A DNA stretch of 64,000 nucleotides from Porphyromonas endodontalis ATCC 35406 (GTDB lineage: Bacteria > Bacteroidota > Bacteroidia > Bacteroidales > Porphyromonadaceae). The notes under the pieces were generated by a model, which made no database searches, was not told the origin of the DNA, and saw only the letters and a program-made list of their open reading frames with translations. The position numbers and the translations under genes were made by a program. The DNA lies in assembly GCF_000174815.1 (NCBI RefSeq), contig NZ_ACNN01000026.1, positions 1-64,000 of the forward strand, given 5' to 3'. The first letter of the stretch is position 1. Each line of letters starts with the position of its first letter. Positions 50,660 through 52,804 of this stretch are shown here, piece by piece.

Positions 50660-51166
<507 letters not shown>

Positions 51167-51224
51167 GAGTATCTAGAGAATAATCTTGTTTCCCTTTATT
51201 TAGGGAGATAAATCATTTCTATAG

Positions 51225-51260
51225 CTCCTGCTCTCACTCCGGTAGAGCAGGAGTTTTTTT
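51225..51260 (+). terminator. Intrinsic terminator of V-ATPase operon
   Basis: CTCCTGCTCT/AGAGCAGGAG forms a 10-bp perfect stem with a 9-nt loop, followed by seven T. It lies 59 bp past the subunit K stop. Confidence 0.93.
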
Positions 51261-51333
51261 ATGCCCTTTTGTTTACTTAAACCTTGATAATAACGCCACG
51301 GCTTCCTCGGTCTAGGTGGCGAAGCTTACATTA

Positions 51334-51368
51334 GCGGAACGACTGTCGTTAGTAAACAGTCGCTCCGC
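51334..51368. repeat. GC-rich hairpin between V-ATPase and HU-family genes
   Basis: GCGGA-A-CGACTG and CAGTCG-C-TCCGC pair with one internal mismatch, 11 bp stem, 11-nt loop, no T-run on either strand. It lies 35 bp past the HU-family stop codon and may be its transcript end. Confidence 0.5.
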
Positions 51369-51402
51369 AGAGAGTGTGATGATCGTTTCTCAGAGAGGCA
51401 AG

Positions 51403-51873
51403 CTATTCGTTGCCCTCATTGCTGCCTTGATTAGGCTTGGGTGTAGGTTTAGGCTTTGCCGTTTTCTTCGCAGGAGCTTCCACACGTTCATAACTTACAC
51501 CCGAGAGTGTGAAATACTTGCGTGAGGGCGAGAGGCGCACGACAGGCTTGGTGATATGGACATTGGGGTTGAACTCCGTCTTGCCTTTCTCCACGATTTT
51601 GCTTTGGAACGAAGGCGTGAGTGTACCGATGTCACCAAACTCCACAATGTCTCCGTTTTCCACGTGCCGTTTCGCAATTTCGGCGGCAAGTCGTAGTACA
51701 GCTTCCACTTCGGCTCCCGTGAATGTAGTTGCTCTTGCCACTTCCTCACAGAAGTTGCGGTGGTCGATGCGCTTGCGTCCTGTCGGACGTGCCTGAAGCA
51801 CTGTTTTTCCTGCCATTGCTCCGATGGCTGCCTTACGCTCGGTAAGCGTGTAGGCCAATGGTCTGTTTGCCAT
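51403..51873 (-). CDS. HU-family histone-like DNA-binding protein
   Basis: A 156-residue HU/IHF-fold protein of the HU-HIG type common in Bacteroidales. The HU core is spread over about 20-125: FCEEVARATTFTGAEVEAVLRLAAEIAKRHVENGDIVEFGDIGTLTPSF, with helix pair and beta arm. A Lys/Pro-rich tail (KKTAKPKPTPKPN) ends the protein. By eye the gene is richer in GC than its neighbours. It is isolated between opposite and unrelated genes, and its promoter carries three palindromes at 22-bp intervals. Such HU variants are often linked to mobile elements, so this may be a captured or relic copy. The role, chromosomal organiser or local regulator, is unknown. Confidence 0.88.
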   Translation of the reverse strand: MANRPLAYTLTERKAAIGAMAGKTVLQARPTGRKRIDHRNFCEEVARATTFTGAEVEAVLRLAAEIAKRHVENGDIVEFGDIGTLTPSFQSKIVEKGKTEFNPNVHITKPVVRLSPSRKYFTLSGVSYERVEAPAKKTAKPKPTPKPNQGSNEGNE

Positions 51874-51912
51874 AGTCTTTTAGTATTAAGTTTGTTCCTC
51901 GTAAATGATGTT

Positions 51913-51954
51913 CTGCCAACCGTCAGAGCGAGGAGTTTTCTCTCCCATTGGCAG
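51913..51954. repeat. Inverted repeat in HU-family gene leader
   Basis: CTGCCAA (51913-51919) and TTGGCAG (51948-51954), within the predicted 5' leader of the HU-family gene. It could fold the leader RNA. Confidence 0.4.
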
Positions 51955-51974
51955 GGCCTTTCGTTACTTGGTGG

Positions 51975-51982
51975 CAAATGTA
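51975..51982 (-). promoter_or_regulatory. Candidate HU-family gene promoter -7 box (TACATTTG)
   Basis: Perfect TAnnTTTG match on the minus strand, 102 bp upstream of the ATG. The first palindrome of the operator array fills the place of the spacer and -33 element. Confidence 0.55.
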
Positions 51983-51986
51983 CGAA

Positions 51987-52047
51987 AATATGATATCATT
52001 TCTGGCGAAATATGACGTCATATTTGTAGGGAAATGACGTCATATTT
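51987..52047. promoter_or_regulatory. Triple palindromic operator array upstream of HU-family gene
   Basis: Three related palindromes centred at 51994.5, 52016.5 and 52038.5, exactly 22 bp apart. The middle one is a perfect 18-bp palindrome, AAATATGACGTCATATTT. The first has core ATGATATCAT and the third core ATGACGTCAT. The first adjoins the -7 box. The equal two-turn spacing places all sites on one DNA face, as expected for cooperative binding by a dimeric regulator. The binding protein is unknown; autoregulation is possible. Confidence 0.75.
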
Positions 52048-52135
52048 TTAGTGAGCACTCGTCTTTTCACTTGATCCGGGCGTGTAGCCGGTATTATCGT
52101 TATCATACAGGAGAGAAGCTCCTATTTAATAAGAA

Positions 52136-52176
52136 ACCCCGGAGAGTATTCGGAGTGTGAGAATACTTCCCGGGGT
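52136..52176 (-). terminator. Terminator after LuxR-type regulator gene
   Basis: ACCCCGGGAAGTATTC and GAATACTCTCCGGGGT pair over 14 of 16 positions around a 9-nt loop, followed on the minus strand by TTCTTATT. It is 29 bp past the stop. Confidence 0.75.
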
Positions 52177-52204
52177 GGTTTTGTGAAAAGAATTGCCCCT
52201 ATTA

Positions 52205-52804
52205 CTAGGTATGAATTTCGTCGATATTTACAAGCTTATTGACAATAGCATAGATCGTGAGTCCGCTAGGGCTATGAATCTTGAGTTTCTTGGCAATATT
52301 ACGCCTGTGGGTAATTACGGTGTGAATAGAGATAGAGAGCTTAGCGGATATTTCTTTATTCGTAAGCCCTTTTGCCACGTAAGCCACCACGTCTTTTTCT
52401 CTCGGTGAGAGTAGGCGTTCGTTGTCTAGATCCATCTCTTCGTTCTCGGCTTGGCTAACAACGGAGAGAAGGTTTTGTAGAATGGTTTCCGTAGAGTCTC
52501 CAATGTTGATAGTCGCGTCGTAGCTATAAAGTACAGACGGATCAACAGAACCTGTGGTAAGCGCCAAGATTTTGGCACGTGCTACAGTCAAGAATCTCTC
52601 ATCTAGGTGTACGCCCATTACGATGGGATTCATCAAGATAATATCGGGAGTAAAGAAACGAATGGTAGAAATAATGCTTTCTATATCAAGCTCAAATGCA
52701 ATCTGCGTTCTGAACTTATTCGATCGCTTGATCACCGCTTCTATCCCCAAGGCAATTACGGGATTAGGCTCTACGATGAGTAGTTTATGTACACTTTGTA
52801 TCAT
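52205..52804 (-). CDS. LuxR/NarL-type regulator with degenerate receiver domain
   Basis: A 199-residue protein with a receiver-like N-terminal domain (about 5-115) and a LuxR-type helix-turn-helix (about 130-178; LLSPREKDVVAYVAKGLTNKEI, then THRRNIAKKL). The receiver lacks the normal phosphorylation chemistry: the phosphoacceptor place reads PDIILMNP, Asn59 instead of Asp, and the acidic pair is reduced to VEPNP. It is therefore probably a phosphorylation-independent response regulator. It lies 53 bp downstream of a hemerythrin-domain gene on the same strand, followed by a terminator, so the two likely form one unit. Targets are unknown. Confidence 0.9.
   Translation of the reverse strand: MIQSVHKLLIVEPNPVIALGIEAVIKRSNKFRTQIAFELDIESIISTIRFFTPDIILMNPIVMGVHLDERFLTVARAKILALTTGSVDPSVLYSYDATINIGDSTETILQNLLSVVSQAENEEMDLDNERLLSPREKDVVAYVAKGLTNKEISAKLSISIHTVITHRRNIAKKLKIHSPSGLTIYAIVNKLVNIDEIHT

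Follow-up and report, generated by a model that had tools for sequence, protein, structure and literature searches.

Results

The HU-HIG locus and its upstream array

The gene described here encodes a member of the HU-HIG family and lies in a 64-kb stretch of DNA, the whole of which is called the window in the following (Table 1). Its neighbors on one side are genes for a LuxR/GerE-type regulator and a hemerythrin-domain protein, and on the other side a gene for an ATP synthase C subunit, part of an ATPase that we take to be of the V/A type as judged by its other genes. The protein matches PF18291 (HU-HIG), a model that also scores the ordinary HU of control genomes, with 60 bits (E 3.1e-16) against a gathering cut-off of 26.2 bits, and it is a relative of TIGR01201 (HU_rel) that falls outside that family by the NCBIfam cut-off (61.6 versus 68.6 bits). 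An AlphaFold2 model (pLDDT 86.9, pTM 0.63) predicts the HU/IHF fold, namely two helices followed by a beta-sheet with arms, and a Foldseek search with this model matched HU, IHF and 4fmr (best E 4.9e-4), the best PDB fold matches being HU 6n2l and BVU_2165 of Bacteroides (4fmr). In the model, two beta-strands (residues 6-14 and 24-30) precede the HU-type helices, and a further strand spans residues 83-91 with residue 93 just after it, which by our reading of the secondary structure would be the place where the HU arm begins.

Table 1. Features of the HU-HIG promoter region, with positions counted from the first letter of the window
Feature	Position	Strand	Description
HU-HIG family gene	51403..51873	-	156 aa; array upstream of gene
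-7 box	51975..51982	-	TACATTTG (pattern TAnnTTTG); 3 bp from unit 1, 109 nt upstream of ATG
Array unit 1	51986..52003	none	AAATATGATATCATTTCT; core ATGATATCAT at 51990-51999
Array unit 2	52008..52025	none	AAATATGACGTCATATTT; perfect 18-bp palindrome, core ATGACGTCAT at 52012-52021
Array unit 3	52030..52047	none	GGAAATGACGTCATATTT; core ATGACGTCAT at 52034-52043

The array reads AAATATGATATCATTTCT-GGCG-AAATATGACGTCATATTT-GTAG-GGAAATGACGTCATATTT (51986-52047) and holds the exact core ATGACGTCAT twice and ATGATATCAT once. A first-pass annotation of this DNA had described three palindromes centered at 51994.5, 52016.5 and 52038.5, the middle one perfect over 18 bp and the first adjoining the -7 box. 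The centers and the 22-bp steps hold, since they follow from the core positions, the perfection of the middle copy is borne out by its sequence, and unit 1 indeed directly neighbors a match to TAnnTTTG, presumably the Bacteroidales -7 consensus. No clear -33 element of the HU-HIG promoter was identified. Taken as a whole, positions 51985-52048 form an inverted repeat that is 78% complementary, and the array is the sole stretch in the 64 kb in which 27/40 or more positions match at any of the lags 18-26. As single cores with up to two mismatches are not enriched in the window (15 found versus 24.65 expected), the signal lies in the phasing and perfection of the units, and loose cores carry none.

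One could imagine an RNA role for the palindromes, as an attenuator or terminator structure, given that they can fold and that plus-strand positions 52003-52020 match a loose terminator pattern. We regard this as highly improbable, however, because the palindromes are located upstream of the -7 box and hence probably outside the HU-HIG transcript, because an Rfam search of 51160-52300 returned no match up to E 0.1, and because the LuxR-type gene has a fitting hairpin of its own at its end (52136-52176). This strong hairpin, whose 16-nt arms are 88% complementary, lies directly 3' of the LuxR-type gene (52205-52804, minus strand) and is likely its terminator.

Arrays upstream of HU-HIG genes in other genomes

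The first-pass annotation had proposed to look for the core upstream of HU-HIG genes in relatives, and it is present there: in five Prevotella-type loci (L055, L123, L116, L087, L103), the ATGACGTCAT word is found directly upstream of HU-HIG genes 82-91% identical to that of the window, as it is upstream of a broken HU-HIG copy (L052). The same annotation had held that orthologous promoters devoid of the palindromes would speak against an operator. The close orthologs in G008 and G033, two genomes from which ATGACGTCAT arrays are absent, do lack this word but are preceded by other 22-bp arrays (L020, L021), so that the objection holds in its letter only.

Among 80 genomes, a pair pattern of the word was found in the own genome alone, with a reversed-pattern control of 0 in all 80. 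A scan of a species-genome collection gave 81 stretches, many of them in Prevotella, Hoylesella and Alloprevotella, whose genomes hold several each; those in Sharpea, Akkermansia and Bartonella, among others, are apparently unrelated. The close HU-HIG clade itself is patchy, with members in 22 of 80 relatives (E 1e-10), 3 of 247 genomes sampled within the order and 16 of 200 genomes of the P. aurantiaca genus (both at E 1e-15). Behind the ATGACGTCAT word, the HU-HIG gene is broken or gone in SUG325, P. dentasini and HJM029. Broken or lost HU-HIG copies behind this word, with arrays that persist, were noted at L052, L114 and L061 in three Prevotella genomes. P. falsenii and Alloprevotella Lung230 carry ATGACGTCAT-type arrays, and all of their 13 and 8 PF18291 matches, respectively, are more than 5 kb away from the arrays listed. 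None of 14 other HU-HIG loci compared has the neighbor genes of the window locus, and similarity beyond the HU-HIG gene was limited in this comparison to the array and the leader.

The period is far more widespread than the word. Upstream of 36 HU-HIG homologs, a best repeat lag of 22 was obtained at 24 loci, one of 44 at 7, and neither at the other five; after removal of the window and of five loci that had been found via their arrays, 25 of 30 homologs still had one of these two lags. On average, 29.6/40 positions matched at lag 22, compared with about 15-18 at lags outside these two, and control stretches from the same loci gave 11-23 matches per 40. The words vary (ATGACGTCAT, ACCCTCGAGGGT, CAGTCGACTG, ACGTATACGT and others), and where ATGACGTCAT is missing, the homolog in most cases has a different word that keeps the 22-bp period. 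At loci that passed our array caller, the unit is an 18-bp quasi-palindrome of the form A4-N10-T4 plus a 4-bp linker; the caller accepted nothing in 21 of 68 aligned loci, in some of which (L131, L143, L168) arrays are visible by eye. Arrays of 22-bp period upstream of HU-HIG genes are thus general and reach beyond one promoter. Among other PF18291 matches, 14 of 30 readable loci had a best lag of 22 or 44 (L014 being weak with 24/40), a further five of the 35 having been skipped as too short. Arrays at HU-HIG genes of other subfamilies were seen with best lags of 23 (L243, 31/40), 46 (L228, 33/40) and 24 (L248, 40/40).

The proximal unit may overlap the TAnnTTTG box or stand tens of bases or more away from it, the median distance being 17.5 as measured at 34 loci with a rough caller. 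At L226 and L230, the array sits between the box and the HU-HIG start codon in a roadblock-like position, and L239 has a second, nearer 22-bp array at the HU-HIG gene with a word of its own (ACCCTTATAAGGGT).

The paralogs of the own genome (L007, L010, L011) and the window gene all differ in their word. This bears on the alternative, also raised by the first-pass annotation, that an unlinked regulator binds the arrays and HU-HIG is merely a target gene: since the words of these paralogs are different, several private regulators would be needed.

Covariation of the word with the HU-HIG protein

If HU-HIG reads the array, close homologs with different words should consequently differ at contact residues. 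Over 144 residues, the HU-HIG proteins of the window and of SUG325 (L138) share 92% identity (87% over the whole alignment); their words differ, and the few differences between the proteins include residues 29 (R/N) and 93 (I/L). For a broader view, five of 47 loci with a called array were left out as doubtful (L165, L137, L187, L136, L156), and the remaining 42 gave 282 pairs of more than 70% identity and 85 columns. Residue 29 ranked first of the 85 columns (r 0.42); none of 2000 label permutations, which ignore relatedness, reached this value, and their mean maximum was 0.19. Base by base, half-site position 6 is best matched by residue 29, at r 0.61 against 0.17 for the runner-up column, and position 8 by residue 93, at r 0.50 against 0.19. 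A second test, which used all 42 loci, put the same pairings on top, with R2 values of 0.65 (of 116 columns) and 0.50 (of 115 columns), respectively.

The trend can be read from the residues themselves. Position 6 is T in 13 of 15 loci with R or K at residue 29 versus 2 of 27 with other residues, and in 8 of 10 versus 2 of 16 if identical combinations are counted once. Leucine at residue 93 goes with T at position 8 in 9/10 cases and I, T or M with A in 6/6, and for A, V or S (26/42 loci) the picture is mixed, with no clear base. For position 7, the best columns disagree between the tests (12/13 or 27), and residues 12/13 were rejected as its readers, as few loci carry the signal (L180, L046, L038) and the second test disagrees.

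Relatedness inflates these covariation figures. When pairs of any identity are considered, residue 29 ranks fourth behind 108, 27 and 130, and this lower rank among distant pairs slightly reduces our confidence in the main explanation, that of a private operator. On a tree built without the trait columns, the word changes 12 times, with 'no array' counted as a word state, and residue 29 changes 8 times. The sister rows L020 and L021, on a starred branch, differ in both. For the ACCCTC word, there are two independent switches on well-supported branches, both concordant and too few for significance; for ATGAC and R29, the one well-supported switch either agrees or shows no difference, depending on the pairing. 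Three close homologs with L or V at residue 29 (L173, L175, L176) have no array, and the more distant L146 (L) has one. Given that the word covaries with HU-HIG residues, which would not be expected of an unlinked regulator, binding of the array by the window protein itself is nevertheless the most likely reading.

Arrays away from HU-HIG genes

Of nine genome-word pairs in which the genome has an HU-HIG matching the word, 7 also have same-word arrays at places other than this gene, versus 0 of 9 pairs lacking such an HU-HIG; this difference (Fisher p 0.002) covers two words, and some genomes fall into both groups for different words. For the ACCCTC word, the counts are 4 of 5 genomes versus 0 of 5, one of the positives (G094) being a single two-mismatch pair, and the reversed controls are all 0. 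For the CGTATACG word, they are 3 of 4 versus 0 of 4, with reversed controls of 0 or 1 in 7 of 8 genomes and of 4 and 7 in G027, where the forward count is 3. The reversed pattern in G027, with more matches than the forward one, consists of TGCATATGCA pairs at a 22-bp step and may be a word belonging to a different HU-HIG. The Prevotella genomes that were chosen for having ATGACGTCAT arrays are rich in them, and some ATGACGTCAT-rich Prevotella have no intact partner. In P. falsenii, arrays of this word are found at about ten places.

We fetched 40 regions around arrays, of which L328, L332 and L353 gave no chain. According to a crude ORF caller, the genes flanking 39 arrays are convergent in 12, divergent in 7 and tandem in 17 cases (3 undetermined), and because of this mix of orientations we disfavor a role of the scattered arrays at promoters alone. 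Among the flanking ORFs of at least 100 aa, 30 of 66 were scanned and revealed no common theme, with 2 of the 30 lacking a Pfam match; the neighbors are mixed and often of housekeeping type, such as EF-G-like, TsaE, RecG, D-Ala ligase and queuosine synthesis genes. P. falsenii and P. aurantiaca share orthologous arrays, one beside TsaE and one beside a MiaB-like gene. Transcriptional insulation or nucleoid anchoring would be guesses at what scattered arrays do.

That arrays occur at many places without an HU-HIG gene, and that the P. falsenii arrays are well kept with no HU-HIG beside them, is what one would expect of an unlinked regulator. In view of the different words of the own-genome paralogs and the covariation described above, we nevertheless consider such a regulator unlikely, and autoregulation by HU-HIG is supported as the better of the two options offered by the first-pass annotation.

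The arrays could also be selfish or mutational repeats, that is minisatellites, partly inside a repeated carrier, that lie near HU-HIG genes by chance and are read by no protein. In favor of this, the number of units differs between orthologous sites (3 versus 2, 5 versus 4), and BrickBuilt of P. gingivalis is described in the accessible part of its report as a MITE with a 23-nt repeat (PMC4596501). Common flanks, TACCTGATTCTTAAAGAATGAGCATTAA ... AAACAAAAGAGTAA, surround ATGACGTCAT-type arrays at L102, L103, L234 and L239, forming a repeated element found in P. aurantiaca, P. pallens and P. brunnea, and because of these shared flanks a carrier element around the arrays is possible in some species. 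Flanks in H. pleuritidis had suggested a MITE as general carrier. This idea was dropped, as a single one of 35 flank pairs tested (about 104 bp on each side) is clearly above its shuffles, namely that of an H. pleuritidis array (L361) with terminal inverted repeats matching at 14/14 positions; in L345, the inverted repeat beats its own shuffles by one. Further evidence against a selfish repeat comes from the two orthologous arrays, in which the cores (23/30 and 28/30 identical) are better conserved than the remaining spacer (88/176 and 112/168), from the covariation of the word with protein residues, and from the presence of arrays upstream of most HU-HIG homologs tested and their absence from control stretches. 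As such, we judge it very unlikely that the arrays are mere repeats.

Discussion

From our point of view, the array is probably a private operator of the adjoining HU-HIG gene, which would accordingly encode an autoregulated, sequence-specific HU. The comparative data, namely the same word upstream of related genes, other words at the 22-bp period upstream of most homologs that lack it and the covariation with residues, favor self-control within the operator reading of the first-pass annotation. We infer HU-HIG binding, cooperativity and autorepression from sequence comparison as follows. Each HU-HIG dimer would bind one 18-bp quasi-palindrome (A4-N10-T4), and the three sites, being spaced by 22 bp and thus sharing nearly the same helical face, would invite side-by-side cooperative binding. 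As unit 1 is located just upstream of the -7 box, filling of the array would silence HU-HIG's own promoter. The half-site AAATATGAC could be read by the added N-terminal beta-strands, with residue 29 and possibly 27, together with residue 93. Other arrays of the same word, in two tra operons of this genome and at about ten places in P. falsenii, may represent further binding platforms.

HU is the textbook example of a non-specific DNA packer, and IHF is a protein of the HU fold that prefers particular DNA, recognizing chiefly its shape, by means of the arms, at individual asymmetric sites. HU-HIG would resemble IHF as an HU-type protein with a DNA preference, but the putative sites here are short quasi-palindromes in 22-bp tandem arrays with a different word per protein, and they covary with a residue in added N-terminal strands. 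The PF18291 family, to which the window protein belongs, was reportedly named HU-HIG by Burroughs et al. in 2017. MatP/matS, ParB/parS and Noc likewise involve dispersed palindromic sites, each read by one chromosome-organizing protein; to our knowledge, these proteins have folds unrelated to HU and no 22-bp arrays.

A literature search that covered few subscription papers found, among the matches listed, no private operator arrays or DNA words for HU-HIG. In the accessible text of one match, 'HU-HIG' is the mere name of a B. vulgatus gene (PMC11035120). The nearest described repeat among the matches listed is BrickBuilt, which forms dispersed intergenic arrays in P. gingivalis and of which one copy adjoins a gene for a DNA-binding protein (PF00216). 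It differs from the arrays described here by its 23-nt unit inside a MITE, and a cognate protein is not named in the part of the report available to us (PMC4596501). Because two HU-HIG loci (L243, L228) have best lags of 23 and 46, a link between BrickBuilt and HU-HIG arrays is possible. PG0121 of P. gingivalis is, according to the accessible part of its description, a classical HU that prefers distorted DNA (PMC3969353). BldC of Streptomyces is described, in the text at hand, as a small protein that forms cooperative multimers on repeated sites; it is MerR-like and binds direct repeats, in contrast to an HU fold on palindromes (PMC5859096).

The main interest of the present findings lies in their generality, i.e., in an HU-type family with private, diversified 22-bp operator arrays, and the sequence comparisons suggest a little-explored family of HU proteins that recognize specific DNA words. 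If this is true, these proteins, in which changes at one or two residues go along with changes at one or two bases, would represent natural experiments on the route from an HU fold to sequence-specific binding and could serve as a source of orthogonal DNA-binding parts. It could further account for minisatellites of 22-24 nt that have gone unexplained in the genomes of Porphyromonas and Prevotella, and it gives the expanded HU-HIG paralogs, as well as the arrays inside conjugative transposons, a role that can be tested.

The latter arrays deserve a closer look. The exact 14-mer ATATGACGTCATAT occurs at three places in the own 2.06-Mb genome, namely in the window, on contig C3, with a one-mismatch copy 22 bp before it, and on contig C26. 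Both sites outside the window lie between traG and the next gene in tra operons of conjugative transposons (TraG, TraJ and TraK were identified with NCBIfam; for the neighbor of traG, the match to TrbJ is weak). Both arrays are composite, in that CAGTCGACTG-type units carry on at about the same 22-bp step. One could speculate that HU-HIGs are fast-diversifying, mutually orthogonal sequence-reading nucleoid proteins with their own 22-bp address arrays, and that conjugative transposons carry composite arrays of different hosts' words (CAGTCGACTG plus ATGACGTCAT, located between traG and the tra gene that follows it and sharing one 22-bp phase), which would let any host they enter silence or license the tra operon; we consider this extended reading doubtful.

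An array is not a general feature of tra operons, as it was present in 4 of 30 loci read (from 34 matches in the own genome and relatives), two of these four being from the own genome. The four tra-operon arrays (L251, L252, L270, L279) have near-inverted ends, CGCGTAATACAA ... TTGTATCTACGC, which were unseen in the other junctions read, and an array with such ends looks like a small insertion. Composite arrays or array neighborhoods with ACCCTCGA-type and ATGACGTCAT units were also observed at L109 and L366 of SUG325, and L366, at the place of L065, holds a remnant of an HU-HIG leader besides the array.
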